From: Acorus gramineus
Taxonomy: Eukaryota; Streptophyta; Magnoliopsida; Acorales; Acoraceae
Direction of reading: 5' to 3'
Assembly (NCBI GenBank): GCA_030737835.1
Contig: JAUJYN010000017.1
Span: forward strand, 2,418,001 to 2,482,000
DNA: 64,000 nucleotides
Part shown: positions 1 to 62,129 of the stretch, one piece after another
Layout: each line of letters begins with the position of its first letter
How positions within the stretch are numbered: the stretch's first letter is position 1
Translations under genes and position numbers: made by a program
The notes under the pieces: model-generated
What the model saw: only the letters and a program-made list of their open reading frames with translations
Database searches by the model: none
What the model was told of the DNA's origin: nothing

Positions 1-2435
1 GCGGGCAGTGCCCCGGGCGTGCAGGCGAGCGGTGCTCGGGCCACTCGGCGACGCGCGCAGGCAGGCAACGCGGGCAGCAGCGCGGGCAGGCTGGCAGGCG
101 CGCAGGGCGCGTGCTGCCAGGCGCGCTGGGTGCGTGTTGCGCGGGCGTGCGCGTGGACACTGGTTGAGGGTCCCGGGTGCTGGGCGCTGAGCGCTGGGCG
201 CTAGGTCGCGGGTACCGGGTGCTGGCCGAGGGTGCTGGGCGCTGGGCGCTGGCGGGCGCAGTCGGGCGCGCAGTCACGCGCGGGTGCGCGTTGGTTCTGG
301 CGCAAGCAGGGGTGCGCGCGGGAGTGCGCGCGGGTGCGCGCGGGCGCGCGCAGGCATGCGCGCGAGCGTGCGCGCGCGCGGCCAGTGCGCCTGGGCGCTG
401 GGCAGGGAACCAGTGCGCGCGCGCGCGTGCATGCGCATGCGTGCGCGTGCTGGGGCGTGCTGGGGCATGCTGGGGCAGTGCGCGGGGTGCTGCGCGAGGG
501 GCGCGGGCTGGATGCGCGGTGCGCGTGGGCGCGCGCAAGCGTGCGCGTGCGTGCGGGTGCGCGTCTGGGCGCGCGGGCAAGCGCGCGGCAGTGCGCCGAT
601 GGTGCCGGGGTGTGTGCGTGCGTGCGCATTCGTGCGTGCGCATGCGGGGGGCCATGTGAATGGCTGCCCGAGGGTTCGGGTAGGTGTCGGGGCACTCGGA
701 CTCGCGTGCGTACGCGCGTGCTCGCATGCGTGCGAGCCCGTATGCATGCTTATCCGAGTTTTGGGTATTTCTGTGCAATTCTATGTATAAATTGTGTGGT
801 TTCTCACCCAGTTGATTACCCTATCTTGCAGATCTTGACGGACGGTCGCGCGACGACCCGATCTCTGGTGAGTGGGACAATCCAACCCAGTAGAGAGGTG
901 TTATACGCACTTGGGCGTATACCGACCTCTCCTGGGGCACCATGGATAGATATTGGCATGTGTAATATGTATATCATGCGAGCATGATTTAATTGTAGAA
1001 TGCATGTTACCCTAGACTTTGCATGTTAGGGACTTGCACCCTTAGGATATGGGTATGAGCCATGCACCATGTCCCCTGTTTTCCATGTTAGGAAGCCTGA
1101 CCGATGAATGTGCCCTGCTAGTTTATTTATTAAATTAAATGCTAGTATTTGTTAAATTGCATGTTATAGTGAATATTATAGGGGAGGGGCCTTGCGAGGA
1201 CAGCGGTGAGACCCGGGTTAGGGTACACCGTGTTCCTTGTTTGGTTGTCGGGGTGTCCTATAACGGGAACTCACGCTGCCCTCCCGAGTTTCTTTCCCCC
1301 AATGATATTCCACCCTTGTTATAACCTTATGCATGTTCCCCGCATCGTAGTTATGCGCCCTGGTGGGTTCTGAGGAATTCAGAACATTAGTGTTGTTATG
1401 ATGTGTTGTTTGCGGATCCGAGTGGATCATATGCGATGGATAGGCTGTTCTGTTCCCTTCGTTGGATCCGTGTAGAGACTACCTCAGCGTTAGACAGGTT
1501 GTCCCGTGCAGGGGCTCCCATTAGTAGGCGCCTCCTGATTTGGTAGAAGGACTGTGCTGAACATGGGAGTGGCCAAACGACCTACGGAGTGGGGAGAGAC
1601 TATCGGTGGACCAAGGGTGACCAACAGCCTAGTCAGTCCCAAGAGCCTATGTCACCCGTTGTAGGGTGAGGGTGAGGGTGTAGTGGGTTGGCGATGAGCG
1701 ACCCGCTGGATTTGTCTATGGATGATTGTCAGTCCCAATATCCTATGTCACCCCTGTTGAAGGGGTGAGGGTGAGGGTGTAGTGGGTTGGCGGAAGCGAC
1801 CCACCGGATTTGTGATTGGATTTTGATTAGTCCCAATATCCTTGGTCACCCATTGAGGGTGAGGGTGAGGGTGTAGTGGGTGGGCGGTAGCGACTCACTA
1901 GTTTGAGGAATTGTTGTTATTTGTGGTTAAGGATTATGTGGTTGTGGATGTTAAGGATTATTTGGTTGTGGTCAATATTGTCTGTGATGCATGGGTTGTG
2001 CCGTTCACTGAGCGTGTGGCTCACCCCTCGCACAATATTTTTTTTCAGTGTCATCTGAGTCGGATCTGGAGGAGCAGCTCCCCGAGGGACTTCATCAGTA
2101 GCGGAGTAGCGCCACGTCCCGCGAGTTGCAGAGACTATCAGCATCCCTTGTACCAGTATGTATTTTCCGTGCTTGGGCACGCGTTTGTGTTGTATTTGGA
2201 TGTCTTTGTATGTATATTGGCTCTCACAGGACATGTGATTATGTATGGAGTCTGTAGTGTGTTTTGATTACAGATTCAGTCTTTAGCTTCCGCATTTGGT
2301 GTATATATCATGTCAGCCCTGCTTTTGTTGTCTGTGTGTCATTCTGGCTGCTTGTGTATGATATTATTGACCTCCTGTGTAGATTCTGATATTATATATA
2401 CACTTGCCGCGTACCGGGGACGCCCGGGCGTGACA
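1..2435 (+). mobile_element. A1 5' LTR, 3' portion (Tekay/Del gypsy)
   Basis: The 3' three-quarters of a forward A1 LTR, cut by the window edge. It ends in GGGCGTGACA at 2435 and is followed directly by a tRNA-iMet primer site, so it is a 5' LTR and not a solo copy. It aligns along its length with the 5' LTR at 51041-54137. In order it holds a very GC-rich alternating CG/TG block (1-760), an acceptor-like TCTTGCAG (824-831), a 36-nt exon-like stretch (832-867), a GTGAGTGG donor, (GGGTGA)n tracts near 1660-1880, the TGAGC hairpin near 2010 and the LTR terminus. The long open frames in the GC-rich block run in several frames on both strands and are compositional. Confidence 0.85.
832..867 (+). 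other. predicted 36-nt leader exon in A1 LTR
   Basis: A 36-nt segment lies between an acceptor-like TTGCAG and a strong donor-like GTGAGT. The same segment with the same length recurs in other A and C copies at 15789-15824, 43924-43959, 52643-52678 and 60638-60673. The splice signals are visible, but splicing itself is inferred. Confidence 0.5.
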
Positions 2436-3890: not shown

Positions 3891-5238
3891 CAATCAATAC
3901 TCGAATGGTTGAGATATGAGCAACTGGTGTATAGGTGTCAAAGAAGTCAACTCCCTTCTTCTTAGTGAAACCCTTTGAAACTAGTCCGGCCTTGAACTTC
4001 TCCACATAACCATTGGCTTTGAGCCTTCGTTTGAAGACCCACTTGTAGCCTTCGTTTGGCTCCTCTTGGAAGATCCACCAACACCCATGTGCCATTCGCC
4101 ATGATAAACTCCATCTCGTCATTCACGGCCTCCCTCCAGAGATGAGCATCTCTAGACTTCATCGCTTCCTCGAACGATTGTGGATCACCTTCGACGTTGT
4201 ATGCCACGAAGTCAGGCCAAAAGGACTTGCTCTTTCTAATTCTCTTCAGTAAAGGCTGATCTGCATCAACCTCCTTCTCAGCTTGCGTTGGATCAGGATT
4301 GGGGACAGCATGGTCCTCGTCTGCGATCTTCTTCTCGTTTTGTGCATTCTCAAGTCGGTCTTCGAGAACAATATTTTTATCCTTCACAAACTTGTCTTTG
4401 AAGAACTCAGCATCTCGAGCTTCAATGAAAACATTGGTGTCTAAATCTAAAAACCTTAGAGCACTACTATTCTCGACATGACTCAAGAAGATGCACTTTG
4501 TGGCTTTTGGACCCAGCTTTGGCCTCTTTAAGTCTGGTAGACGAACATAGGCCAAACACCCCCACACTTTGAGAGAATTCAATTGTGGTGGGTATTTAAA
4601 CCACAACTCGAATGGAGTGACTTTGGTCTTGGAGTGTGGAACTCTGTTTAGGATGAAGTTCACCATTAGCAATGCTTCACCCCAATAATTTACATAACCT
4701 AGTCTAAGATGCCACAACACAAGGGAATAAGCAGAAGAACTGATTTTATTCACTTCATTGACTGGGGTTGTAACGCTGAGTTTGAACATCCCATCGGTAC
4801 AGTAGCCAGATCCAAAGTACACATTTTTGAAAGACATAATTATCTTTCCGCCTTTGATATCCAAGCGCATACTCGCATTGCTGAGTAGACTCCTGGATAT
4901 CAGATTCTTGGAGATTGTAGGCACATGCTTTACATTCTCCAGAATTAGAGTCTTCTACATTCTCCAGAGTTAGAGTCTTCCCAGAGGTCAATGCCAGCAC
5001 AACTATTCCTACGCCGATAACATCATCCTTGGATTGGTTTGCCATGCTGACATTTTCCTTGACTTTGGCATAGGTGGAATACAGAGCTTTGTTGGCGCAA
5101 ACATGACAACTAGCTCCGCTATCAATCCACCAATCTGTGTCCTTGCTCAGTGTGAATACTTGCGAGATCATTGCAACAAGATTGATAGGTTCTGCAGCGG
5201 GACTCACTGGTGTCATGAGTTGGTTCACTTGGTCCTTC
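3891..5238 (-). mobile_element. Ty1/copia pol remnant, reverse
   Basis: Minus-strand copia polyprotein sequence. Reading right to left, I see a protease segment with WWIDSGASCHVC (about 5100-5140), a gag-pre-integrase motif LWHLRLGYVNY (about 4690-4720), integrase-side sequence with LNRVPHSKTKVTPFELW (about 4600-4640), and the start of reverse transcriptase with VNDEMEFIMANGTWVLVDLP (about 4070-4130) and FDTYTPVAHISTIRVL near 3900. Integrase before RT is the copia order. The frame is broken in several places and the element is old. It stops at 3890 against an LTR. The gag end of the same element lies at 10829-11623, beyond the C1 insertion. I did not assign a copia lineage. Confidence 0.85.
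5234..5238. repeat. target-site duplication CCTTC, left copy
   Basis: CCTTC at 5234-5238 and again at 10829-10833 flanks the C1 insertion. The copia sequence resumes on the far side, which fixes the insertion borders precisely. Confidence 0.85.
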
Positions 5239-7060
5239 TGTGATGAATCTGCAGGATACTGGAGTTCCAATGGTTATAGTTGAGCGACCTATCTCTGGCG
5301 GCATGTGAAGCACAGTTGTGGATACTGTCGCGTTTTGCTCCACATTGATCGCAAATGAGGAGACGCGATGCTAACGTTCGTGATGGGACTCAACCGCCTT
5401 ATCAGATAGATGACGTCGCATAGGCATTGTCGAGGTTCGACAACCCCTTATTGCGTGTCTTGTGGATTAAGTGCGGTTGAGCGGCTTACCAAGCATGTAA
5501 GTGTCATCATGAGCGCCAGCCATGCTCGAGGAGCAGAATCTGGACTTAATCATTCAAAGAATTGTTTTGATCTCCCCGTGAGGGTTGAAGATCAGGTACC
5601 CCTTGCTGTGAATTGATGATCTATTTGACCAGCTCTGGGAGCGAGTGTCTTCTGTTAGATCAATCTTCGCACAAGGGTACCACAAGTTGGAGATCCGGTA
5701 GATGGCCTTTCATGACCGTTTCAGGCACTACGAGTTTTAGGTACTGCTGTCAGGGTTGATGAATGGGCCGGATGCCTTCGTGGATCTCAAAAGTTTTATT
5801 GGGCCTCCATAGACTACTTTGAGGTAGTCTTCATTGAGATTGCTAGTGGTGCGATCAAAAAGTGATATGGGTGACCTTGTTTCCCCAGGATGGCATGCCC
5901 TCAGGCAAAGTTCGAGAATCATCATCGCGTTGGAAAGCGTCAGTCCATGGAGATTCCTCAGTGGACGTGGGAGTGGGTTATCAGGGATTGTTGCGGACTC
6001 GCTAATGTCACATTCGGGTCACGACGCCGTCTAGGTGATCATTGACCGACTGACTAAGTCCGTGCTTCCCTCCCTAATCCGACTGATTGAGTCTCTGGAT
6101 GCCTTGACGTGGGTTTTCACCTTCGCGATTGTTCGTCTTCATGGCACTCCGGTCGGCGCTATTTTCGGTTGAGACGCGAAGGTATCTTTGAGGTTATGGC
6201 GCAGCCTTGGCAGGCTTTGGCGCGAGCCTCCATTTAAGTATAGCGTTTCATCGCCGATGGACAGCCAGACAAAGAGGATGATTCAGACCTTGGAGGACAT
6301 GCTAAGTGCCTGCGTGCTCGATGATAAGGGCAGTTGGGTGAGGCACCACCCATTTGTTGGGGTATGCCTGCAAGACGACTGCCATTCGAGCATCCTGATG
6401 GTACTGTGAAAGGCACTCTACATGCGCAGTTTTATACCTCCCTTGTGTTGGGACGGTTGAGGAGCGCCAGTTGGAGGGGCCACAAGTTATTTATTTGACC
6501 TTGCAGTGGCCAGGTTGGTTCATGTGTGCATCCGCACCTCCCAGAATCGATAGAAGGGCTACGCAGGTCATCGTCGCCAGGAGCTTACCTTCGGGTTTGG
6601 CGACCATGTTTTCCTGAAGGTGTCCCAGTTTAAGGGCATCCTCTGTTTTGACGTTCGGGGCAAGCTGAGTTGGCTCTTCAATGGGACTGTTTCTCGTCAT
6701 TTAGTAGATTGGGGAGGTGGCTTGTCATTTAGCCTTTCCCCCACAACTGGCTCATGCACACGTCGTCGTCCTTGTTTCATGGCTGTGGCGTTATGTCCAC
6801 GATCCTGCTCATGTCATTCTGTTCGACCGCCTCATCCTCGAGCTGGATTTGTCGTTCGTGGAGCAGTGGATCGAGGTCAAGGACCAGCGTGAGAAGAGGC
6901 TCCACGCTAAGACCGTTCCTTTGATTAGAGTGTGTCGGTAGCGCCAGTCTGGTGCATAGACCACTTGGAAGCAAAAGGTCTATGCGTGATACTGGCTGTG
7001 TTCGGCCTCCCCTTTGGGTTTCCTTAAATTTCGAGGACTAAATTTCCTAAGGGGGGAGAA
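5239..7060 (+). pseudogene. C1 internal region: decayed RT- and integrase-like remnant
   Basis: Noncoding remnant of a Tekay/Del pol. Short stretches recall the A1 pol: an RT-like part near 5600-5790 (the LFDQL and RYGHYEF regions), an integrase-core-like part near 5930-6420 that includes SQTKRMIQTLEDMLSACVLD (about 6262-6320), and a C-terminal part near 6640-6960 with RYVHDPAHVI and KRLHAKTVPLI. It has many breaks and no usable reading frame. The reverse copy at 31346-33190 has the same layout and the same kind of decay, so the decay predates the spread of these copies. Confidence 0.75.
7049..7060 (+). other. polypurine tract of C1
   Basis: AAGGGGGGAGAA lies directly before the LTR start TGTTATGCC. 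This is the usual position for plus-strand priming, and it matches the tract before the 3' LTR of the A1 element (59050-59062). Confidence 0.85.
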
Positions 7061-26384: not shown

Positions 26385-29300
26385 TGTCAGGCCCCAGGGT
26401 GGCCGTCCCCGAGACGTGGCAATAATAAAATATCAGCTATCAATATCTTAGGTCAATAAAGACTCCAACAACAACACACGAAGTGGCAAAGCAAGGATAA
26501 TGATAACTGACTGAAAAGCGGAAGCATAATATATAAACAATGTCTGTAAACCAAAAACATTATTACAGACTTGAATACACAATCACTGTCCTGTGAGAGC
26601 CAACTCTAGACCAAAGAAAATACAACCTGTGCCACATGCACGATTTACAATACATACAATGACTCTAGGACTGCTGACAGCCTCGCACTCGCCACCTGCC
26701 GGAAGAACGCTCCACGCCCATAAGACCACGCCACAGGAAAGCTCCAGCTCCACACCCAACACTGCCCCTGAAAAGAAACAGTATGCGAGGGGTGAGCTAC
26801 AAGCTCAGTGAGTGGCTGGAAACCAATCACCATACAACAGTTCAATACATAAACAATTCCCTTTCAAGGCAAACATGGGTGGAAACCCATGGATAACAGG
26901 GTCACGCGGCGGCGCGACCAACCTCACCCTCACCCTCACTCCCGGAGGGAGACTCTTGGGACTTTTGGGGAGAGACCATACCGTTGGTCGAGGAGACCCA
27001 GGATTACTGGTCCACACAACACTACTGGAACATCTACATCAGGATTACTGCCCAACGATGTCTTTGAACATCGATACACAACCGGACCCAACAACTATGG
27101 GAACGGACGAACAACGAATGGGTCACGCGGTGATGTGTCTTCACCTCATCCTCACCCTCACCCCTTAGAGGTGACATAGGACTTTTGGAAGAGACTTAGA
27201 CAGCTCTACACCCTTGGTCCACCGGTAGCCCTTTCCCCGGGTAGCCTCTACCTGGTATACTCCCACGATCAGTACGCTTCCAGACGAATCGGTGGAACCT
27301 ACGGATGGGAGCCCTCTGTCAGGACAACTTTCCGAACGCCATGGAGTTCCTACATCGGATCCAACGAAGGGGAGAACGATTCCACGCTCGCAATATCATT
27401 CGTTAGCCCTCTCCCGGGTAGCCTCTACCTGGTATACTCCCACGATCAGTACGCTCCCGAATGCATCGGTGGTACCTACGGATGGGAGCCCTCTGTCAGG
27501 ACAGCTACAACCCAGGCCTCTTCAACACGGACAACATTGGGAGTAAACATTCCATGTTCGCAAAGAGAACCCAATGGAAAAACACTACACTCGATAATCA
27601 CATATTGATGATAGCGAACACTATTGTACTCCCACACGGTTGCGTCGCTCGGACACAGGGGGGTGTCACGCCCCAACTACCGGCTTAACAATCCGATAAG
27701 ATAATGAATTCTCCTGAATTCCAAACGAGTGCATCGCTCGGATGCACGGGGCGATTACATCGCTAGCGCTCTAACTAATAAGGTACAACCCGACAGCGGG
27801 TCATACCCACGCCTATTTCAGATAGGCCTGATTAGTTTTAACATGCGCATATATTTTATAGGAGAATTTAATCTTAGTTATGTGCATGAACCATATGCAC
27901 AATCATCTAATAATTATAGGGACACTCCCTAACATGGATTACATCATAATAATTCATACAACATGCATACATAGTCATTAATCACATAAACATACAAAAT
28001 ATACTCTTAACATCCGTTGGATATCGCCAACTTAAAAGAAAGGGGCAAGCGCGATCTCGCGCACTAACAGGTGCATGCCAATATTCCAAACGAACCTGAG
28101 TCGAGTAGGAAATCGCATCTACTTACTCAGTTCGTTCAGAGGGAGAGGGCGGGGGAGATCATCATCTCATGAAGCTGGTCATAGCTTTGCCCCATTAGCA
28201 TGGGCGCAACAACTACACCACGCCCTCGAGTCTTATCGCAAGGGAATATTAGGCAGGTGCCCGTTATTAACCCAGACTTATTCATGTTCGATATTCCAAT
28301 TATTATGATGGGAGTATTATTACAATACTACCTAAGGCATGCCATATTCTGTACATCCATACACATTATCAAAAATACATGCCCATACTAAAGGGACGCA
28401 TGCAACGCAATCATTCATACATGGATACAATACAAGTATATAAGCCTAGCATGCGAGATATCTACATATTATAGCTTAAGCATGGCCATACTACTTATCT
28501 ACACAAGTAGTATAGCTAGGGGGGCCCCATCGATGCGCGACGCGCGACTACGCGCATCGAGCGCATCCCGAGTGGGGGGGGGGATTGGATCGAACCACTC
28601 ACCTAACGAGCGCACGGCTCGCGAAACGCAAGAGGGCGAAAACAATTGAATCCGAAGCATGATACCAATCCGCCAAGAATCATCCAATCCCGAAATTGAC
28701 CCATGGTTTGGGTTGGGCTATAACAAGGTGCTCGATACCCCGAAACACACCCCGAACGGGTCCGAATACTGCAAGCACGCCCCCGAGCACCGCGTGCACG
28801 CGGCCCACGCACTCCGCACGCATCGGTGAACGCCCAGCACGCCCTCGAGCACTCCGTGCACGCTGCCCACGCACTCCGCACGCATCGGACAACGCCAAGC
28901 ACGCCCTCGAGCACCTCGTGCACGCTGCCCACGCACTCCGCATGCATCGGACAACGCCAAGCACGTCCTCGAGCACCTCGTGCACGCTGCCCACGCACTC
29001 CGCATGCATCGGACAACACAAGTTCAAGTGATGCATGAGGAACCTCATTTGAAAGAAGAGGAGAAAAGGCATATAAGGTTCACTCACACATACTCACAAA
29101 CGGGTGGCGTACACACATACACAACACATAACACATGAACATGGGCTTCTCTCCCTCATCCTCTTCAATTCCATGCATGCACAACAACAACACAAGGCTA
29201 GGGAGCTTCCACTCCTCCCCATCAGCTGCAAAAGACGTGGCTGAACCCAACACGGGGAGCGGGAGGTCCATACGCGGCTCCGGCACGCCCACACGCCACC

Positions 29301-43258: not shown

Positions 43259-44716
43259 CGAGGTGGTCGTGGGTGCGCTCGAGAGCCCCCGCACCTCCCC
43301 CTTTCCCTCCCCCTCTCTTGGTAAGCCTTTCCCTCTTCTTTTCTGGTTTTGTAGCAGATTTGGGTGCTGTTGGGAGGATGTTTTTATGTGTAATTTCTGC
43401 TGCACATGAGGTGTTTGTGTTTATGCATGGATGGTGGTGGTTTTTGTGTGGTAGTAAGGCAGATTTGTATCTCCTTAAGATCCTTGTGGAACTAGTACCT
43501 AGAGGCATATATTGAGACTTATGTCTTCATGTAATATGATCATCTATGTGTCTAGATGTTATATATGAAATTTGGTGTCATTATGATATCTATGTTGTGA
43601 GTTGAAACCTGTTTTGCATGGATTGTCTAGATTCGTGAGGGAATTAACTTGCTTCTGAAAATATTTTATTTCGGGCTTGTAGAGGCAAAATTAGGTTATG
43701 ATGTCTTCTTGGATTATATGTCAGATGATGTGTATGATTTATTTCATAATTTGTGGATGTGTATTTGGTGGTGTGGAGATCAAATAGTAGGGCTGGTTGC
43801 AGCAGTTTTAGCAGTTTTGCTCGATTGTGTGTCAAGGTGTTATCATGCATGTTATGGAATCTATCAGGAGTTAGGTAGTCTTTGTTTGAAATACTCACCT
43901 CTTTTTATGCCCTTGCCTTGCAGATCTCGTCGGTTGGATGCGAGATGATCCGGGTATCGGTGAGTGATTCGATCCAACCCTTCGGGATGCGCTCGATGCA
44001 TGTATCATGCATCGCGCATTCATGGGGCTTCTTTTCACCCTTAATATGCTAGATATTTGCATGCTAGGTTTCTATAGCTCATATATTGCATAGAACCCCC
44101 TATTCTACCATATACTAGCCTATGTATGAATAATTGTGTTTTCATGCGCCCTTCTTGTTTGGGCATGTATTTTCATATGAGTCATATGGATGTATAGAAT
44201 ATGGTAGGTAGTTCTTATTTGTATACTACCCCTATGTTAGTAGGCATGGATAAATACCGGGTACATGCCTAGTATTCCTTGGTAATATGACTTAAGCACG
44301 TGGTGTAGTTGTTGCGTTCATCTTGTTGGGGCAACGCTATGATCTTCTTGAGATGATGAGGCTTCATCTCTCCCTCACCCTCTCTCCTTGCGCGAACTGA
44401 GTAAGTAGATGTGGTTTATTCTTGACTCAGGTTTGCTTGGGAATACTGGCATGCGTCTGTTGATGCGCGAGATCGTGTTTAACCCTTCCCTTTTAAGTTG
44501 GTGATATCCAACACATGTTAGGTTGTATGTTGCGTGCTTGCATGATTAATTCCCTTGTATGCATGTGTAGCTAGGCCTTGCTTTGTATGATATGTTGCTT
44601 ATGATGTGTATTCATGTTGGGAGGACCCCTATAGTCAATTATTACATTATCGTGCATGTGGATCATGTATATAACTGCGATAGAATTCTCCTATTATAAT
44701 TGCGCATGTTAGACAA
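43259..44716 (+). mobile_element. C8 LTR, part 1, forward
   Basis: A forward C LTR starting inside the 5' leader region, with donor GGTAAGC near 43319. It carries no GC-rich tandem block, unlike the other copies: donor and acceptor are joined by about 600 AT-rich bases, ending in acceptor CCTTGCAG (43916-43923), the 36-nt exon (43924-43959) and donor GTGAGTGA. It is interrupted at 44716 by C9 and resumes at 48474. Confidence 0.75.
43924..43959 (+). other. predicted 36-nt leader exon in C8 LTR
   Basis: Bounded by CCTTGCAG and GTGAGTGA. It has the same length as in A copies although about a third of its bases differ, which suggests that length and borders are constrained. Splicing is inferred. 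Confidence 0.5.
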
Positions 44717-47700
44717 TGTCACGCCCCAGGGCGGCCGTCCCCGAGACGTGGCAATAATGAAATATCAGCTATCAATACCTCAGGTCAATAAAGACTCCAA
44801 CAACAACACACAAGGTGGCAAAGCAAGGATAATGATAACTGACTGAAAAGGGGAAGCATAATATATAAACAATGTCTGTAAACCAAAAACATTATTACAG
44901 ACTCGAATACACAATCACTGTCCCGTGAGAGCCAAGTCTAGACCAAATAAAATACAACCTGTGCCACATGCACGATTTACAATACATAAAATGACTCTAG
45001 GACTGCTGACAGCCTCGCACTCGCCACCCGTCGGAAGAACGCTCCACGCCCATAAGACCACGCCACAGGGAAGCTCCAACTCCACGCCCAACACTGCCCC
45101 TGAAAAGAAACAGTATGCGAGAGGTGAGCTACAAGCTCAGTGAGTGGCTGGAAACCAATCACCATACAACAGTTCAATACTAAAACAATTTCCTTTCAAG
45201 GAAAAACATGGGTAGAAACCCATGGATAACAGGGTCACGCGGCGGCGCGACCAACCTCACCCTCACCCTCACTCCCGGAGGGAGACTCTTGGGACTTTTG
45301 GGGAGAGACCATACCGTTGGTCGAAGAGACGCGGAATTACTGGTCCACACAACACTACTGAATCACCAACATCGGGATAACTGCCCAACGATGTCTTTGA
45401 ACATCGATATGCAACCGGACCCAACACTTTGGGAACGGACGAACAACGAATGGGTCACGCGGCGACGTGTCTTCACTTCATCCTCACCCTCACTCCCGGA
45501 GGGAGACTCTTGGGACTTTTGGAAGAGACTTAGACTGCTCTACACCCTTGGTCCACCGGTAGCCCTTTCCCTGGGTAGTCACTACTTGGTATACTCCCAC
45601 GATCAGTACGCTTCCGAACGCCTCGGTGGTACCTACGGATGGGAGCCCTCTGTCAGGACAGCTTTTCCAACACCGGGAAGTTACTACATCGGATCCAACG
45701 AAGGGGAGAACGATTCCACGCTCACAATATCATTCGTTAACCCTCTCCCAAGTAGCCTCTGCCTGGTACTCTCTCACGATCAGTACACCACCGAACGCAT
45801 CGGTGGTACCTACGGATGGGAGCCCTTTGTCAGGACAGCTACAACCCGAGCCTCTTCAACACGGACGACATTGGGAGTAAACATTCCATGTTCGCAAAGC
45901 GAACCCATGGAAAGCAACTACTCTCGATAATCACATATCGATGAGAGCGAACACTATTGTACTCCCACACGGTTGCGTCGCTCGGACACAAGGGGGTTGC
46001 CTCTGCTCTCATGCAGAAATAATCCCAAGGCACATAACCCAACAGGCGGTTCATATACACGCCTAGCACGGGTAGGCCTAGCCTAATGCCCCACTACCGG
46101 CTTAACAAAACCGATAAGATAATGAATTCTCCTGAATTCCAAACGAGTGCATCGCTCGGATGCACGGGGCGATTACATCGCTAGCGCTCTAACTAATAAG
46201 GTACAACCCGACAGCGGGTCATACCCACGCCTATTTCAGATAGGCCTATCAGTTTTTAACATGCGCATATAAATATATCCAGGAGAATTATATCTAGCTA
46301 TGTGCATGAACCATATGCACAATCATCTAATAATTATAGGGACACTCCCTAACATGGATTTACATCATAATAAATCATACAACATGCATACATGGTCATT
46401 AATCACATAAGCACACAAGGCCTAACTTAAGCATGCGTTGGATATTGCCAACTTAAAAGAAAGGGTCAAACGCGATCTCGCGCACTAACAGGTGCATGCC
46501 AATATTTCAAACGAACCTGAGTCGAGTAGGAAATCGCATCTACTTACTCAGTTCGTTCAGAAGGAGAGGGCGAGAGAGATCATCATCTCATGAAGCTGGT
46601 CATAGCTTTGCCCCATTAGCATGGGCGCAACAACTACACCACGCCCTCGAGTCTTATCGCAAGGGAATATTAGGCAGGTGCCCGTTATTAACCAAGACTT
46701 ATTCATGCTGGATATTCCAATTAATATGGTGGGAGTAGTATTACAATACTACCTAAGGCATGCCATATTCTATACATCCATACACATTACCAAAAATACA
46801 TGCCCATACTAGAGGGGCTCATGCAACACAATCATTCATACATGAATACAATACATGTATATAAGCCTAGCATGCAAGATATCTACATATTATAGCTTAA
46901 GCATGGCCATACTACTTATCTACACAAGTAGTATAGCTAGGGGGGGCCCATCGATGCGCGACACGCGACTACGCGCGTCGAGCGCATCCCGAGAGGGGGG
47001 GGGATTGGATCGAACCACTCACCTAACGAGCGCACGGCTCGCGAAACACAAGAGGGCGAAAACAATTGAATCCGAAGCATGATACCAATCCGCCAAGAAT
47101 CATCCAATCCCGAAATTGACCAATGGTTTGGATTGGGCTATAACAAGGTGCTCGATACCCCGAAACACACCCCGAACGGGTCCGAATACTGCAAGCACGC
47201 CCCCGAGCACCGCGTGCACGCGGCCCACGCACTCCGCACGCATCGGACAACGCCAAGCACGCCCTCGAGCACCTCGTGCACGCTGCCCACGCACTCCACA
47301 TGCATCGGACAACGCCAAGCATGCCCTCGAGCACCTCGTGCACGCTGCCCACGCACTCCGCATGCATCGGACAACACCAAGCACGCCCTCGAGCACTCCA
47401 TGCACGCTTCCCACGCGCTCCGCACACATGCGAGAATGCTAAGCATGCACTCGAGCACCCGATGTGCCAACCCTACGCCCCTTTTAGCCTATAAACACAA
47501 GTTCAAGTGATGCATGAGGAACCTCATTTGAAAGAAGAGAAGAAAAGGCATACAAGGTTCACTCACACATACTCACAAACGGGTGGCGTACACACATACA
47601 CAACACATAACGCATGAACATGGGCTTCTCTCCCTCATCTTCTTCAATTCCATGCATACACAACAACAACACAAAGCAATGGAGCTTCCACTCCTCCCCA

Positions 47701-49335: not shown

Positions 49336-51040
49336 TGTCACGCCCCAGGGCGGCCGTCCCCAGGACGCGGCAAGGGTATATATGATATCAGCAGTCTATA
49401 CAGGAGGTCAATAATATACTCTAAACAATATCAACAATGACAACATTGACAACAAAGAGGCTGACATAATATATACACAAATAGCGGCAGCTAAAAGACC
49501 GAGTCTGTAATTCAAAGACATATTACATACTCGATACATAATCAACTGTCCTGTGAGAGCCAATATATACACGACATCCAAATATAATACAAACGCGTGC
49601 TCAAGCACGGAATACGATACATACAAGCATATGGGGATGCTGAATGGCCTCTCACACGAAGAACGTGACGCTGCTCCGCTACTGCTGACGTGCCTCGGGG
49701 AGCTCCTCCTGCGGATCCGACTCAGATATCACTGGAGAAAAATATATGCGAGGGGTGAGCCACACGCTCAGTGAATAGCACAACCCATGCATCACAATTC
49801 ATATTAACCTCAAATCATTTATAGCCTCTAAGTGGCAATAACTACACAATCCAGTGGGTCGCTCATCGCCAACCCACTACACCCTCACCCTCACCCTCAA
49901 ACTGGTGACATGGTCTTTTGGGACTGACTAGGCTGTTAATCACCCTTGGTGCACCGATAGCCTCTCCTCCACACCGTAGCTCGCCTAGTCTACTCCCACG
50001 ATTCAGCACAGTCCGAAACCAAATCAGGAGGTGCCTACTGATGGGAGCCCTCTGTCAGGACGGCCTGTCTAACGCTGAGAAGTCCCTACACGGATCCAAC
50101 GAAGGGAAGAGAAACAGCCTACCCACACGGATACGATCCACTTGGATCCATCAACACCGATCTCAACTCTACAAATGTCATGAATTCTTCAGAATTCCTC
50201 TAGGGCGCATAACTAAGATGCGGGGAAGCATATATTATAACCACAAGGTTATAATATTCTCTAAGGCATGCTAATTACAAAACTCACATTTGATTTAAAT
50301 AAATTAAACTAAATGGGACGCATGCGTAGGTCGAGGCTTCCCTAGCATGAAAACATGGTATCAGGATGCTTGGGCCTTTACACATATCATAAGGGTGCAT
50401 ATCCCTAACATGCAAGGCCTAGGGTGGCATGGATACTACATAATAATCATGCATGCATAGTTTACAATTAATACTATCTAATATGCAATTATGGTGCCCC
50501 AGGGGAGGGCAATGCACGCCTACGTGCATCGAACGCCTCCCAACTGGGTTGGATTGTCCCACTCACCAATACCCGGGTCGTCGCGTGACCGCTCGTCAAG
50601 ATCTGCAAGACATGGGAAATCAAAATGGTGAGTAAAAATACATAAATACATAAGAAATACGCTAGAAATACCCAACACTCGGACAAACATGCATACGGCC
50701 TGTACGCACGCGAGTCCGAGTGCCCCGACACACTCCCGCACCCCCGGGCAGCCATGCGCATCGCCACCCGCACGCACGCGCACGAGTGCGCACGCACGCA
50801 CGCAGCCCCGCGCCCCGGGCGCACTGCCGCGCCCCTGCCCTCGCGCCCAGGCGCGCTGCCGCGCCCCTGGCCGCTCGCCCAGACACGCCGCATGCTCGTG
50901 CGCACGCTCGCGCGCGCCCGCGCGTCCAGCCCTGCGCCTACCCGCACGTACAGCGCCCCTGCGCAGCACCCCGTGCGCACCGCACGCACTGCCCCCCTGC
51001 GCACGCCCGTGCGGCCGCACGTACGCGCGCACTCGCCCAG
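49336..51040 (-). mobile_element. A2 solo LTR, reverse, part 1
   Basis: Reverse A2 LTR starting TGTCACGCCCC at 49336, interrupted at 51040 by the A1 element and resuming at 62130. It is flanked by GTAGT (49331-49335) and GTAAT (63112-63116), four of five matching, with C8 continuing on both sides. Its left half mirrors 15521-17056 almost base for base. It is older than the A1 element inside it. Confidence 0.85.
51036..51040. repeat. target-site duplication CCCAG/CCCAA, left copy
   Basis: CCCAG at 51036-51040 and CCCAA at 62130-62134 bracket the A1 element. They agree at four of five bases, and the single difference is a transition. Confidence 0.75.
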
Positions 51041-51284
51041 TGTTATATATGTGTCACTTTTTGCCTGCTGGTAACCATTGGAGCATTTTGGCAGTTTTTG
51101 AGTTTTTTTCATTTTTCGATCGGAACCGCAAAATTTTGGACTGTTAGCTATCGTCCTGTGTTTGAGGACTCCGATTGAAAATGTAACTGCATATTATGTG
51201 TCTTGGTGCCATTTTAAGCCACTCACGAAAATTTCATCGAATTCCGGCACGTTTCAGAATTTTGCAGTTCCACGGCGTATCCGG

Positions 51285-51400
51285 GTTTTGACCGAGCGAG
51301 AAGTCATTGGGAGAGTTGACTAGGTCAAAGTGGGCCCATGACTTGGTCAACCCTTTTTGTTTTTTTGTGAGTTTGGGTTGACCCAAGTCAAAGCCCACTT
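51285..51400 (+). promoter_or_regulatory. W-box-like TTGAC cluster in A1 U3
   Basis: TTGAC or GTCAA cores recur in both directions (GGGTTTTGACC, AGTTGAC, GACTTGGTCAACC, GGTTGACCCAAGTCAAAG). TTGAC is the core of the W-box bound by WRKY factors. Equivalent clusters lie at 3530-3640, 15170-15290, 35200-35330, 59305-59415 and 62755-62870. Binding is inferred. Confidence 0.5.
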
Positions 51401-51802
51401 AATTCACCTAATCTAGTCCTTAAGCCTAATTAATCTTGATTAGCCCTAATTCAAGTGAGGTTTGACTTATTTAAAGTGAGCTAAAAAGGTTGCACTACAC
51501 TATTCATCATCTTCCCAAATGCATTTTCTCTCTCCCCCTCTCTCTTTTTCTTAGTTTTGAGCCACCTAGAGGGCTTAGAACTTAAAACCCAAAACATAGA
51601 AAGGATAGATCCGGTCCCGATCTACACGCCGGTGTTTTCAAATTCGAATTTCAGCGTGTCTTGCCCTTTCTTCCACCCTCTCTTCTCCTCAGATCTGAGC
51701 CCTTTCGGAGGTGGGAGGAGGTCTTGGTGGTGGAGATCCTTGGAGAGGCATTTCGGTGCGAGAAGAGCTTCCGGTTCCCTTCCTTCCCTCTCCTTCCTTT
51801 GG

Positions 51803-52642
51803 GTAAGCTCTTTTCCTTCTTTTCCATGTTTAGATGCTTGTTAGGAGGGTGGGTTTGGGTGTTGGTGGCTGTGGGGGGGTGATGGGTGGCTGTTGGGGGC
51901 CATGGGTGGCCGGATAGAGGAGGTAGGATGGCTCGGGCAGGGGGTTGGCTGCCTCGGGCAGGGTGGCTGGTGGTCTCGGGCAGGTTGGCAGCACAGGCAG
52001 CAAGCAGCGCAGCAGGCAGGGCGCGCGCGTGCGTGCGCGCGGGCGTCCGCTCGGGGGAGCTGGAGGGCGTGCTGGGCGCGCGTGCTGGGCCTAGGCGCGG
52101 GTGTGCTGGGCGCTGGTCGTGGGCGATGGGGCGCTGCGTGCAGGGCGCCGTAGGGGGCGTGCTGGCGGAGCGCTGCGCAGAGGCGCAGGCGCGCTGTGCG
52201 CGCGCGGCGAGTCGGTGGAGTGCTGGGCGAGCCGGTGGTGCGAGCGGGTCTGCGCGGAGCAGGCGAGGGCAGCGGAGGTGCGTGCGGGGTGCGCGTGGGG
52301 CGAGGCGCTGGGCGCGCGGCGCGTGCGGTGTGCGCGCGGGCTGCTGCGCTGGGGCGCAGCGGGCGCGCGGTGCACCCGGGGAGCTCGGCTGCATGACCAG
52401 GCGAGCGGGCAGGGGCCCGGCGGTGCGCCTGGGTGCGCGGGCTGAGGCGCGGCGGTGCATCCGATCGCGGGTGGCCGTGCGGGTGGTTGCCGGGGGTGCG
52501 GGAGTGAGTCGGGGAGCTCGGGCTAGCGTGCGTGCGGGTCGTATGCACGTTTGCCCGAGTGTTGGGTATTTATTTGTGTATTTTTGAGTATTTTGTGGTA
52601 TTTGTGTATTTTACTCACCGGGTTGATTACCCTGTCTTGCAG
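51803..52642 (+). other. predicted leader intron 1 of A1 LTR
   Basis: GTAAGC at 51803 to TTGCAG at 52642. It encloses the GC-rich, alternating purine-pyrimidine block, the most variable part of the LTR in every copy, and its ends are conserved between A and C families. In the 3' LTR the equivalent signals are at 59822 and 60637. Confidence 0.5.
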
Positions 52643-52678
52643 ATCTTGACGGACGGTCGCGCGATGACCCGGTTACCG
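52643..52678 (+). other. predicted 36-nt leader exon of A1 LTR
   Basis: Runs from ATCTTGACGG to GGTTACCG between TTGCAG and GTGAGT. The length is 36 in at least six LTR copies of two families in this window. Confidence 0.5.
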
Positions 52679-53451
52679 GTGAGTGGGACAACCCAACCCA
52701 GTTGGGAGGCGCTACATGCACTTGGGCGTGTACCGTCCTCCCCTGGGGCAGCATAATTAATATTAACTGTTATATTTTACTCCATGTGAGCATGATTACT
52801 GTGTAGAATGCATGCCGCCCTAGACCTGTATGTTAGGGACTTGCACCCTTAGGATATGTGCATGAGCCGTGCATCCTGTCACCTCGTTATCATGCTAGGA
52901 AAGCCCCGACCTATGCATGCGTCCTATTAGTTTGATTTATTTAATTAAATGCAAGCTTGTGATATTGTTAGCATGCCTTGGGGAATATAAGGGGACCTTG
53001 CGAGGTAAACATTGAGACCCGGGCTAGGGTACTCCGTGTTCCTTGTTTGGTTGGCGGGATGTCCTATATCGGGACCTCAGGTTGCCCTCCCAAGGTCTCT
53101 TTTCCTCATTATTATCTTATGTATTCCCCGCATCTTGGTTATGCGCGCTGGAGGAATTCTAAAGAATTCTAGACATTAGAGTTGTAGAGATGTGTTGTCA
53201 GCGGATCCGAGTGGATCATATGCGATGGATAGGCTGTTCTGTTCCCTTCGTTGGATCCGTGTAGAGACTACCTCAGCGTTAGAAAGGTCATCCCGTGCAG
53301 GGGCTCCCATCAGTAGGCACCTCCTGATTTGGTAGACGGACTGTGCTGAATGTGGGAGTGGCCAAACGACCTACAGAGTGGGGAGAGACTATCGGTGGAC
53401 CAAGGGTGACCAACAGCCTAGTCAGTCCCAAGAGCCTATGTCACCTATTGA

Positions 53452-53579
53452 GGGGTGAGGGTGAGGGTGTGGTGGGCCGGCGATGTGGCGACCCACTGGA
53501 TTGTGTAAGGATGATTATCAGCCTATTAAGTCCCAACATCCTTTGTCACCTATTGAGGGGTGAGGGTGAGGGTGAGGGT
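53452..53579 (+). other. G-quadruplex-type (GGGTGA)n tracts
   Basis: Two tracts (53452-53476 and 53556-53579) with at least four runs of three or more G separated by TGA. They lie on the sense strand and are present at the matching place in A1, A2 and C LTRs (for example 1660-1880, 10140-10290 and 61441-61575). Confidence 0.7.
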
Positions 53580-53695
53580 ATGGTGGTTCGGCGATGTAAC
53601 GAACCCCCGGATTGTGTTGTTTATGCCATTTCGAGGCTAGTGACTTGATTAAATGTGGTTAATATAAACTGTGATGCATGAGTCGTGCTATTCAC

Positions 53696-53710
53696 TGAGC
53701 GTGTGGCTCA
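53696..53710 (+). other. hairpin 1, TGAGC-GTGTG-GCTCA
   Basis: A perfect 5-bp stem about 25 bases before the predicted second acceptor. C copies have TGAGC-TTGTA-GCTCA (10401-10415) and E has TGAGC-GTGTTGTA-GCTCA (37738-37755). Loop and surroundings vary while the stem is kept. Confidence 0.7.
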
Positions 53711-53906
53711 CCCCTCGCATAATTATTTTCTTCAGTGATTACCGAGGCGGACTTGAAGGAGGAGCTTCCCGAGCGACTACACCAGTAGCGGAGTAGCGCC
53801 ACGTCCCTCGAGTTTTGAGGCCATCAGCATCCTTCCTTTGATTGTATGTATATATCTCTGTGCTTGGGCACCTAGTATGGATTGTATTTGGATGTATTGT
53901 GGATAT

Positions 53907-53922
53907 ATTGGCTCTCACAGGA
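53907..53922 (+). other. U5 arm of predicted U5-leader duplex
   Basis: ATTGGCTCTCACAGGA is complementary at 15 of 16 positions to TCCTGTCAGAGCCAAT at 54159-54174, just past the primer site. The segment is strongly conserved in A1, A2 and C LTRs. Confidence 0.65.
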
Positions 53923-53938
53923 CATATGATTATGTATC

Positions 53939-53970
53939 GAGTCTGTAAAGTGTTGTTGATTTACAGATTC
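53939..53970 (+). other. hairpin 2, GAGTCTGTAAA / TTTACAGATTC
   Basis: An 11-bp stem (one G-U pair) with a 10-base loop near the LTR 3' end. A2 copies have a perfect stem GAGTCTGTAAT / ATTACAGACTC (near 16858), and C copies have GTCTGTAA / TTACAGAC (near 10643). Confidence 0.7.
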
Positions 53971-54142
53971 AGTCTTTTTAGCTTCCGCATTTCTGTGTAT
54001 ACATCATGTCAGCCTCTTTGTTGTCTGTGTTGTCTTTTTAGCTGTTGTTTATGGTATATTATTGATCTCCTGTATTGACTGCTGATATCATGTATACCCT
54101 TGCCGCGTCCCGGGGACGGCCGCCCTGGGGCGTGACAAAAGT

Positions 54143-54155
54143 TGGTATCAGAGCC
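54143..54155 (+). other. primer binding site, tRNA-iMet type
   Basis: TGGTATCAGAGCC, five bases after the LTR end at 54137. It marks 51041-54137 as a 5' LTR. Confidence 0.95.
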
Positions 54156-54174: not shown

Positions 54175-54257
54175 TGTCTTCTTTTTCGTAGAGATGAGTC
54201 CTAGGATTTCTATATGAGTATTCTGATCCTAGTGTCTGGTTTTCTTAGGTTGCTGAT

Positions 54258-55415
54258 ATGCCTCCTCGCAGAGGACGGCGCGGACGTGGTCCCTCTCGAC
54301 CTTTGGAGGTCTCCGGACCTACCAGGGGCGAGGATGCTATTGGTGAGTCCTCAGCCGTGAGGCCAGGATCAGCGCAGGAGCCTCCTGCCTGGGAGCGCGC
54401 GTTTGCGCGGATAGCTGATTTGGTGGAGACGCAGACCAGGGCATTGGAGGCCCAGACCAGAGTATTGGCAGATCAGGCACGGGAGATTCAGGAGCTGCGG
54501 GCGGCCCGCGAGGCAGTTCCGCAGGTTCCCTTGGTGGCAGATCCACCTGTGGTACCCGATGTACCCCCAGTCCCCGTGGTGGTCCCGGCGGTCAGAGTTC
54601 AGGATCCCCAGGAGAGGGAGGTGGGGCTAGAGGCTGCAGCGAGGGTGCAGCAGAGTGGCCTCTCAGCCTTTCTGAAGCTCCACCCTCCCGAGTTCCAGGG
54701 TCAGACGGAGGACCCCCTTGCTCCAGAGAGATGGTTGATGGAGGTGGATACGATCTTCTCGACCATGCTTTGCACCGACCGCCAGCGAGTCTCCCTGGCC
54801 ACTTTTATGCTGAAGGGTAGCGCCGCCGACTGGTGGGCTACTAGATCAGTGGACATCCCGGAGGGATTGGAGCAGCTTACGTGGGCGGGATTCCGGAGGC
54901 ATTTCTTGGAGGAGTACTTCCCCTTCTCGACACGTCAGATAGTGATGCAGGAGTTTGAGCAGCTGACTCAGGGCACTATGTCTGTCGCTGACTACTCCAC
55001 GCGCTTCACGAGGCTATCCAGATTTGCTCCAGCTTTGGTGATGGACGAGGAGACGAGGTGCCGTCGATTTGAGCTCGGTCTCAGCAGCGCCATTCGGGTG
55101 CACGTCACCTCCCAGGCTTTCTCGAGGTACTCCGACTTAGTGTCTTGAGCGAAGACAGTCGAGCGAGACCTCGGGATCCTCGTGAGGGCTTCGACCTCTT
55201 CGGCAGATCAGAGGCCACCCAGGAGCCAGGACCAGGGACAGCGCAAGAAGAAGAGGCCCCGCTTTGATCGGTCAGCGGCTGCCTCTCCTCCAGCAGATGC
55301 GGTGCCAGCGCGAGGTCCAGCACCCATCGCAGCAGTGCCAGTCCAGGCGAGGCGACCAGAGACGCGGCGCTGTTATCACTGTCAGCGCGTCGGGCATATC
55401 TTGTATAATTGCCCC
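54258..55415 (+). pseudogene. gag: A1 gag region
   Basis: Encodes the particle protein of the Tekay/Del element, which in this family assembles cytoplasmic particles around element RNA. The start is the ATG at 54258 (MPPRRGRRGRGPSRPLEVSG), 120 bases after the LTR and matching the fossil start at 2557. An arginine-rich N-terminus is followed by a heptad-like stretch around residues 55-80 (VETQTRALEAQTRVLADQA). A capsid-type retrotransposon gag domain then runs from about residue 130 to 290, with LSAFLKLHPPEFQG and WATRSVDIPEGL. A proline- and basic-rich linker leads to a CCHC zinc knuckle, [14 protein letters not shown] (55371-55412). A Gln-rich tract follows. The region is broken, and gag and pol are normally one polyprotein in this lineage. 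Confidence 0.88.
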
Positions 55416-59062: not shown

Positions 59063-62000
59063 TGTTATATATGTGTCACTTTTTGCCTGCTGGTAACCAT
59101 TGGAGCATTTTGGCAGTTTTTGAGTTTTTTCATTTTTTTCGATCGGAACCGCAAAATTTTGGACTGTTAGCTATCGTCCTGTGTTTGAGGACTCCGATTG
59201 AAAATCTAACTGCATATTATGTGTCCTGGTGCCATTTTAAGCCACTCACGAAAATTTCATCGAATTCCGGTACGTTTCAAATTTCACAGTTCCGGGGCGT
59301 ATCCGGGTTTTGACCGAGCGAGAAGTCATTGGGAGAGTTGACTCGGTCAAAGTGGGCCCATGACTTGGTCAACCCTTTTTGTTTTTTTGTGTGGTTGGGT
59401 TGACCCAAGTCAAAGGCCACTTAACTCACCTAATCTAGCCTTAATCCTAATTAATCTTGATTAGCCCTAATTCAAGTGAGGTTTGACTTATTTAATGTGT
59501 AATCTAAAAAGTTTGCCCTACACTATTCATCATCTTCCAAATGCATTTTCTCTCTCCCCCTCTCTCTTTTTCTTAGTTTTGAGCCACCTAGAGGGCTTAG
59601 AACTTAAAACCCAAAACATAGAAAGGATAGATCCGGTCCCGATCTACACCCCGGTGTTTTCGATTCGAATTCCGGCGTGTCTTGCCCTTTCTCCCGCCCT
59701 CTCTTCTCCTCAGATTTGAGCCCTTTCAGAGGTGGGAAGGGGTCTTGGTGGTGGAGACCCTTGGAGAGGCATTTCGGTGCGAGAAGAGCTTCCGGTTCCT
59801 TCCTTCCTCTCCTTCCTTTGGGTAAGCACTCTTTCCTCTTTTTCATGTTTAGATGCTTGTTAGGAGGGTGGTTTTGGGTGTTGGTGGCTGTGGGGGGGGT
59901 GTTTGGTGGCTGTTGGGGGCCATTGGTGGCCGGATAGAGGAGCTAGGGTGGCTCGGGCAGGGGGTTGGGTGCTCGGGCAGGGTGGCTGGTGGTCTCGGGC
60001 AGGTTGGCAGCACAGGCAGCAGCACAGGCAGCAAGCAGCGCAGCAGGCAGGGCGCGCGCAGGCGTGCGCGCGGGCGTGCGCTCGGGGGAGCTGGAGGGCG
60101 TGCTGGGTGCGTGTGCTAGGCGCGCGTGCGGCCTGGGAGCGGGTGTGCTGGGCGCTGGTCATGGGCGATGGGGCGCTGCGTGCAGGGCGCCGTAGGGGGC
60201 GTGCGCGCGGAGCGTTGCGCAGAGGCGCAGGTGCGCTGTGCGCGCGCGGCGAGTCGCTGGTGCGCGCAGGGTGCGCGCGGAGCGAGGCGAGGGCAACGGA
60301 GGTGCGCGCGGGGCGAGGCGCTGGGCGCGCGGGGCGTGCGGTGTGCGCGCGGGCTGCTGCGCTGGGGCGCAGTGAGCGCGCGGTGCACCCGGGGGGGCGG
60401 GGGGCTCGGCTGCATGTCCAGGCGTGCGGGGAGGGGCTGAGGCGCGGCAGTGCATCCGAGGGCGGGTGGCCGTGCGGGTGGTTGCCGGGTGTGCGGGAGT
60501 GAGTCGGGGTGCTCGGGCTAGCGTGCGTACGGGCCGTATGTACGTTTCCCTGAGTGTTGGGTATGTATTTGTGTATTTTTGGGTATTTTGTAGTATTTGT
60601 GTATTTTACTCACCGGGTTGATTACCCTGTCTTGCAGATCCTGACGGACGGTCGCGCGACGACCCGGTTACCGGTGAGTGGGACAACCCAACCCAGTTGG
60701 GAGGCGCTACATGCACTTGGGCGTGTACCGTCCTCCCCTGGGGCACATAGTTAATATTAACTGTTATATTATAATCCATGCAAGCATGACTTATGTGTAG
60801 AATGCATGCCACCCTAGACTTGTATGTTAGGGACTTGCACCCTTAGGATATGTTCATGAGCCGTGCATCCTGTCACCTCGTTATCATGCTAGGAAAGCCT
60901 CGACCTATGCATGCGTCCTATTAGTTTGATTTATTTAATTAAATGCAAGCTTGTGATATTGTTAGCATGCCTTAGGGAATGTAAGGGGGCCTTGCGAGGT
61001 AAACATTGAGACCCGGGCTAGGGTACTCCGTGTTCCTTGTTTGGTTGGCGGGATGTCCTATATCGGGACCTCAGGTTGCCCTCCCAAGGTCTCTTTTCCT
61101 CATTATTATCTTATGTATTCCCCGCATCTTGGTTATGCGCGCTGGAGGAATTCTAGAATTCAAGACATTAGAGTTGTAGAGATGTGTTGTCAGCGGATCC
61201 GAGTGGATCATATGCGATGGATAGGCTGTTCTGTTCCCTTCGTTGGATCCGTGTAGAGACTACCTCAGCGTTAGAAAGGTCGTCCCGTGCAGGGGCTCCC
61301 ATCAGTAGGCACCTCCTGATTTGGTAGACGGACTGTGCTGAATGTGGGAGTGGCCAAACGACCTACGGAGTGGGGAGAGACTATCGGTGGACCAAGGGTG
61401 ACCAACAGCCTAGTCAGTCCCAAGAGCCTATGTCACCTATTGAGGGGTGAGGGTGAGGGTGTGGTGGGCCGGCGATGTGGCGACCCACTGGATTGTGTAA
61501 GGGTGATTATCAGCCTATTAAGTCCCAACATCCTTTGTCACCTATTGAGGGGTGAGGGTGAGGGTGAGGGTATGGTGGTTCGGCGATGTAACGAACCCCC
61601 GGATTGTGTTGTTTATGCCATTTTGAGGCTAGTGACTTGATTAAATGTGGTTAATATAAACTGTGATGCATGGGTTGTGCTATTCACTGAGCGTGTGGCT
61701 CACCCCTCGCATAATTATTTTCTCCAGTGATTACCGAGGCGGACTTGAAGGAGGAGCTTCCCGAGCGACTACACCAGTAGCGGAGTAGCGCCACGTCCCT
61801 CGAGTTTTGAGGCCATCAGCATCCTTCCTTCTCATTGTATGTATATATTTCTGTGCTTGGGCACCTAGTTTGATTGTATTTGGATGTATTGTGGATATAT
61901 TGGCTCTCACAGGACATATGATTATGTATCGAGTCTGTAAAGTGTTGTTGATTTACAGATTCAGTCTTTTTAGCTTCCGCATTTCTATGTATACATCATG

Positions 62001-62129
62001 TCAGCCCTTTTGTTGTCTGTGTTGTCTTTTTAGCTGTTGTTTATGGTATATTATTGATCTCCTGTATTGACTGCTGATATCATGTATACCCTTGCCGCGT
62101 CCCGGGGACGGCCGCCCTGGGGCGTGACA
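59063..62129 (+). mobile_element. A1 3' LTR
   Basis: A 3,067-bp LTR matching the 5' LTR throughout. It shows the same donor (59822), acceptor (60637), 36-nt exon (60638-60673), GTGAGT donor (60674), A1 module (about 60985-61097), G-rich tracts (61441-61575), hairpins and terminus GGGCGTGACA. Length differences from the 5' LTR lie mainly in the GC-rich block. Confidence 0.93.

Follow-up and report, generated by a model that had tools for sequence, protein, structure and literature searches.

The 64,000-nucleotide (nt) stretch of Acorus gramineus DNA analysed here (C55:2418001-2482000, hereafter the window, part of a 398.6 Mb genome) contains A1, an element of an abundant plant-type retrotransposon with long terminal repeats (LTRs). 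The 5′ LTR of A1 (51041..54137, plus strand) runs from TG to CA, matches the 3′ LTR (59063..62129, plus strand) at 93%, and is flanked by CCCAG and CCCAA, a near target-site duplication. Directly 3′ of it, sequence reading places a spacer and primer-binding site, TGGTATCAGAGC (54138..54153, plus strand), which we take to be of the initiator-tRNA-Met type. The gag start and first gag frame follow at 54258..55148 (plus strand), with Pfam matches over 54249-55148 to Retrotrans_gag (E 1.7e-18) and Ty3_capsid (E 4.3e-10). Pfam matches to gag, protease, reverse transcriptase (RT), RNase H and integrase are arranged in Ty3 order, the zinc-binding domain of the integrase scoring over its cut-off and the core domain under its own. 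Because the LTR pair, the primer-binding site and the order of the Pfam matches agree, A1 is a Ty3/gypsy element. It is probably a chromovirus, with a chromodomain match (PF00385) after the integrase at E 0.00065 and 20.0 bits, under the 25.1 cut-off. The long LTR and the chromodomain-like end are pointers to the Tekay/Del lineage, to which A1 likely belongs.

Within the plus-strand 5′ LTR, a TATA-like box (TATTTAA) and a putative start region, CACTATTC, occupy 51468..51505, and CACTATTCATC is kept in 27 of 29 aligned rows. Exon 1, with a putative 5′ end, extends over 51498..51802, up to a GGTAAGC donor at 51802. Intron 1 (51803..52642) is an 840 nt GT...AG segment closed by TCTTGCAG ending at 52642, and is followed by exon 2, a microexon of 36 nt (52643..52678). 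The predicted intron 2 (52679..53735) is a GT...AG segment of 1057 nt that opens with GTGAGTGG at 52679 and closes with TTTTCTTCAG ending at 53735. Exon 3 would start with the coding-like stretch VITEADLKEELPERLHQ, which ends in TAG (53736..53788). The 3′ LTR carries the same exon and intron set, with its donor at 59821/59822, exon 2 at 60638-60673 and exon 3 from 61728.

Other LTRs in the window share parts of this layout. Exon 2 lies at 832..867 (plus strand) in LTR A2, with exon 3 from 2049, and at 43924..43959 (plus strand) in LTR C, which has a GGTAAGC donor at 43320 and is broken near 44711. Additional 36-nt copies of exon 2 are found at 20864 and 38753 on the plus strand and at 13847 and 50602 on the minus strand, and exon 3 starts at 2049, 16660, 21742, 39598, 53736 and 61728, as well as at 49731 and 12753 on the minus strand. 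A preliminary description of this DNA, made from the letters alone, had proposed that the same four borders occur in order in the A1, A2 and C LTRs, around a segment of exactly 36 nt. All six of the segments that it listed (at 832, 15789, 22228, 43924, 52643 and 60638) do measure 36 nt between AG and GT. The order of borders held in full for A1 only: A2 has no exact GGTAAGC in the window upstream of its exon 2 at 832 and its acceptor at 2049 reads TTTTTTTTCAG, and the C LTR carries CCTTGCAG and GTGAGTGA, with no exon 3 found in the window copy before its break near 44711.

If spliced RNA is sometimes reverse transcribed, genomic copies that lack the intron must exist, and for intron 1 such copies were found. 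An exact-pattern genome search for the A1 junction of exon 1 with exon 2 returned three places, and the reversed-pattern control none. A wider A-type search, in which two mismatches were allowed, returned 91 places, again with none in the control; by our reading of the listed 35-mers, 31 of these are junctions (seven read in their surroundings, the other 24 judged from the 35-mer alone) and 60 are intron acceptors or other sequence. As the wider pattern catches junctions ending in CTTG poorly (28/62 simulated cases), the true number of A-type junctions is likely above 31. For the C-type junction, the search returned one place at 0 mismatches, with none in the control. Eight of the resulting 32 places, seven A-type and one C-type, were read. 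In each of them, exon 1 meets exon 2 precisely at the predicted GT and AG, for two different exon-1 endings (TTGG and CTTG), and the sequence then continues into the start of intron 2. Intron 1 is retained at 5,971 places, which keep TTGCAG before exon 2; set against the 32 junction places, this puts the loss of intron 1 at roughly half a percent, the two patterns differing in the mismatches allowed (one for retention, two for the wider junction search).

These copies show that intron 1 is spliced in vivo at the predicted borders, as seen through reverse-transcribed genomic copies rather than in the RNA itself. Since they lack intron 1 exactly, RNA from which intron 1 had been spliced must have undergone reverse transcription and integration, and this in two distinct LTR families. 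Exon 1 of the A-type copy L102 is 98% identical to that of L022, which has the donor, and the C-type copy L108 matches the acceptor-bearing L087 and L088 at 95% on one side and 99% on the other. The copies closest to L102 and to L108, left and right of the junction alike, bear the intron and come from different families; intron 1 was therefore lost independently at least twice, and the 32 places need not all represent independent losses. Two further copies, L105 and L109, lie 5.1 kb apart on one strand, are 96% identical and both lack intron 1. They look like the two LTRs of one element, and their shared absence of intron 1 is as predicted, because reverse transcription duplicates LTRs. Two more same-strand pairs of intron-1-less junctions, seen in the listed 35-mers alone, are spaced 5-7 kb apart (C82:424712 with 431598, and C78:713389 with 718477), and are possibly also the paired LTRs of single elements.

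The borders of both introns are conserved well beyond the window. Exon-2 length was measured by gapped alignments, as fixed-length motif scans cannot measure length. By this gap-tolerant measure, the window holds ten copies of 36 nt and three of 37 nt, the latter all on the minus strand (including 30074 and 41322). Outside the window, exon 2 is 36 nt long with AG and GT in 29/29 A-type loci, and C-type loci gave 20 matches of 36 nt and ten of 37 nt. The 37-nt copies, in the window and among C-type loci, rule out exactly 36 nt as a universal length. The additional base of the 37-nt C-type copies precedes an ATG that most copies contain, and so leaves the frame after the ATG unaltered. Upkeep of length and borders in genome-wide copies, which the preliminary description had put forward as a check, thus held throughout the A-type loci and in part for C-type copies, which differ in length by 1 nt and show isolated border losses; the frequent border loss and variable spacing that it had named as counter-evidence did not appear in the A-type loci.

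The A-type loci were retrieved with a 201-base query around exon 2; conservation is therefore tested more fairly at the outer borders, 0.8-1.1 kb from exon 2, than at those of exon 2 itself. The exon-1 donor GGTAAG is kept in 29/29 alignable rows, among many other columns that vary; these rows are 26 of the 29 non-window loci and three window copies, with L015, L018 and L033 dropped as exon 1 was unalignable or rearranged. Of 30 matches within those A-type loci, 29 retain the AG acceptor of exon 3. A CTCAC motif, judged branch-site-like by resemblance, is present in the 50 bases next to exon 2 in 93 of 98 acceptor-intact matches and in the 45 bases next to exon 3 in 65/67 matches; it starts mostly 26-32 bases upstream of the exon in both introns. 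Donor, branch-site-like motif and acceptor are hence conserved in each of the two introns. Intron 1 measures 721-995 nt across 27 loci, and intron 2 1043-1059 nt (29 measured values, from close A1 relatives).

The conserved donor, CTCAC and acceptor, together with the continuity of the reading frame across the predicted junction, lead us to infer that intron 2 is also spliced, at 52678/52679 and 53735/53736. Protein matches in L039-L043 that cross this junction, and at first sight looked like spliced copies of exon 2 with exon 3, proved to be intron 2 reading into exon 3. A duplicated segment with CCTATTGAGGGGTGAGGGTGAGGG lies in intron 2 between 53400 and 53620, and a GGGTGAGG-type stretch is shared with the B-type LTR; the duplicated segment is a candidate packaging or structural element. 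Further downstream, an acceptor-like TTTTCTTAG (54240-54248) stands directly before the gag ATG at 54258 (an observation spanning 54240-54258), and does so in 20/20 rows listed, one of which, L009, repeats the window. A third intron ending there is possible, and would remove the primer-binding site.

We consider it probable that the transcribed part of this chromovirus-like LTR carries a microexon of 36 nt (37 nt in some C-type copies) between two spliceosomal GT-AG introns, and that the element maintains two pools of RNA. In this model, unspliced RNA would be the genome and would carry the introns into new copies, and spliced RNA would be the messenger, with a leader shorter by about 1.9 kb, free of the G-rich block and rid of 37 of its 49 AUGs. 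Between the putative start and gag, one AUG lies in exon 1, eight in intron 1, one in exon 2, 29 in intron 2 and ten from exon 3 to gag. As most copies keep intron 1 (5,971 intron-retaining places versus 32 junction places), the RNA that is normally reverse transcribed must be unspliced at intron 1; otherwise, the repeats would lose their introns. The earlier proposal of a real exon between real introns in the LTR leader is supported, in that intron 1 is exactly gone from all eight copies read, with intron 2 judged from its conserved borders and frame.

Several observations weigh against this model. Genome searches for the junction of exon 2 with exon 3 found no place for the A-type, at up to three mismatches with a pattern that matches 952/960 exon pairs, and none for the C-type, with a pattern that matches 184/215 exon pairs, so that intron 2 was never found removed. 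The eight junction copies bear on intron 2 over its first ~60-160 bases, the far end lying outside the fetched sequence. RNA without intron 2 may not be packaged or copied, intron 2 may be spliced less often, or exon 2 may join another acceptor; we favour the first of these. The absence of intron-2-less copies suggests that packaging or reverse transcription may depend on some part of intron 2, or that RNA which has lost intron 2 may be committed to translation. Intron 1 of A1 is G-rich (71% GC, 48% G, 20% T), unlike the U-rich plant introns described in PMC3735527. Borders are lost in some copies: the acceptor AG in L075 and the donor GT in L072 among C-type loci, the exon-3 acceptor in L037, and, in the window, the copies at 8481 (plus strand), 28602 (minus) and 47022 (minus) keep the GTGAGTGG donor without an AG-bounded exon 2. 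Finally, 12 upstream AUGs survive splicing, ten of them between exon 3 and gag, and therefore splicing does not clear the leader.

The genomic copies also bear on readings in which no intron is removed. That the borders are conserved DNA or a chance motif, with no splicing at all, is barely credible: GTGAGTGG alone does occur 28 times in the window, on both strands, yet intervening DNA is exactly absent from genomic copies, which contradicts this reading for intron 1. It is very unlikely that the LTRs without intron 1 represent the ancestral state, or result from DNA deletion, and so say nothing of splicing. L103 and L104 (92% identity across 111 exon-1 bases) seem to form a single intronless subfamily, and on its exon-2 side L107 is closest to L103, so that some of the 32 copies may be inherited and the losses need not all be separate events. 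Ancestry or deletion fits poorly, however, with L102 and L108, whose nearest relatives on both sides bear the intron, and with breakpoints that in all eight cases fall on GT and AG across two exon-1 endings. By analogy with foamy viruses, the splice sites might act mainly by binding U1 small nuclear ribonucleoprotein within the LTR, so curbing premature polyadenylation in the 5′ LTR, with intron removal as a by-product. Two donors, GTAAGC and GTGAGT, do lie within the putatively transcribed part of the LTR, and intron retention is the rule among genomic copies. A lone donor, however, needs no conserved acceptors, CTCAC sites or fixed-length exon, and all of these are kept; we regard this role as unlikely to be the main one.

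A different purpose for the introns would be the production of a small spliced protein, with exons 2 and 3 encoding a conserved peptide (A-type ...LDGRSRDDPVTVITEADLKEELPERLHQ*, C-type MRDDPGIG...ELP...) that might act as a regulator. The predicted splices fuse the two exons into one open frame that closes at the TAG; of 30 unique sequences, 25 have this TAG at its position and no TAG immediately before it. For A-type exon 3, the ratio of nonsynonymous to synonymous polymorphism (pN/pS) in the frame that the splice dictates is 0.35 (24 unique sequences; column-shuffle P 0.002); the two other sense frames score 1.26 and 1.90, and the antisense frames 0.99, 0.74 and 2.04. This signal derives mostly from the split between A1-like and other families. 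Between A1 and L056, a pair noticed first and computed afterwards, there are ten synonymous changes and one nonsynonymous; some other family pairs show no such signal or an excess of nonsynonymous changes, for example, one synonymous to six nonsynonymous between 39598 and L070. Exon 2 has a pN/pS of 0.41 in the C-type, a value that includes 37-nt copies read one base out of register as 36-nt ones, and a weak 0.60 in the A-type. An in-frame ATG, placed after the 36/37-nt difference, is found in most C-type copies of exon 2. By contrast, no in-frame AUG occurs in the open stretch printed before the donor in any of 29 A-type exon-1 rows, nor in exon 2 among the A-type copies covered. A coding role for exon 1 was rejected: its pN/pS is 0.82 in frame versus 0.72 and 1.24 in the others (n=23), and 0.80 versus 0.46 and 1.41 (n=6), another frame being lower in both groups. 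The peptide has no Pfam match at E up to 1. An exon 2-3 peptide is thus possible, and we give a minor chance to its being what the introns are for. It is a long shot that each LTR is a complete three-exon mini-gene, whose doubly spliced RNA would yield a small protein that steers intron-2-bearing RNA to export or packaging, from a non-AUG start in the A-type and the exon-2 AUG in the C-type.

Two introns on either side of a microexon, within an LTR and probably separating two RNA pools, can be compared with several known systems. Foamy virus splice acceptors are located outside the LTR, and these viruses are not known to have a microexon. The likeness to foamy virus lies in a splice donor inside the LTR, where its major donor is placed in the R region, the repeated part of the LTR (PMC3694450). 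In BARE1, a Ty1/copia element of barley, a spliced subgenomic gag RNA favours Gag production and the unspliced RNA is packaged (PMC3735527). BARE1 is thus also an LTR retrotransposon with separate RNA pools, which for the A1-type LTRs are proposed from genomic copies. In BARE1, the splicing takes place within gag, and the spliced RNA yielded no amplifiable DNA copies (PMC3735527), whereas both introns here lie within the LTR and intron-1-spliced copies are present. Plant LTR elements are generally intron-free, with Ogre and EVADE as notable exceptions (PMC12786077, a 2025 review), and the rice element CRR has an intron that gives alternative RNAs (PMC3735527). Ogre, EVADE and CRR share functional introns that yield alternative RNAs, and differ in that, as described there, their introns lie in or between coding regions rather than in the LTR. 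In Cer1 of Caenorhabditis elegans, a spliced mRNA encodes a protein needed for export of the unspliced RNA (PMC12786077); the likeness, a spliced mRNA of an LTR element, is one of description. Rice Retrosat2/RIRE3-type elements have LTRs of more than 3 kb (PMC3485330), and Retrosat-2 is placed under Tekay in a table of PMC6317226. Here too, the long LTR is likened by description; Retrosat2 has a described open reading frame, ORF0, and the word intron is absent from the main text of PMC3485330. Whilst splicing in LTR retrotransposons is already known, we found no prior report of complete introns inside a plant LTR, and none of such an LTR-internal pair, in the open-licence PMC literature, covered mostly at the level of listings and abstracts.

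Introns inside a repeat pose a problem, as each replication through spliced RNA erases them. Retention at about 6,000 places, few exact losses of intron 1 and no loss found of intron 2 form a natural record of how well genome RNA stays unspliced, whereby the separation of translated from packaged RNA becomes testable by counting. Because a single LTR carries the whole intron set, LTRs near genes could donate spliced leaders. Were the mini-gene LTR real, it would be a plant counterpart of Cer1 or of a Rev-type switch, expressible even by solo LTRs.

The intron-bearing LTRs also vary locally. In three LTR pairs (A1, L023/L035 and L036/L026, the last two presumed to be the LTRs of one element each by their ~8.05 kb spacing), the least similar 250-base bin lies in intron 1, at 89, 89 and 94% with many gaps, and most of the downstream part is 96-100% identical; in L036/L026, the first 500 bases do not align. 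The RT segment of A1 is 100% (rounded) identical to those of 11 other copies, among the best 40 of 1,648 candidates, which suggests that the 93% match of the A1 LTRs reflects local hypervariability and not age. Elsewhere in the window, amid a mosaic of Ty3-type LTRs, remnants of a Ty1/copia-type pol lie at 3962-5273 on the minus strand (Pol_BBD and SH3_retrovirus, with gag_pre-integrs under its cut-off), and repeats with a 62-base period, four copies each, are found at 28683-29101 and 47103-47521.
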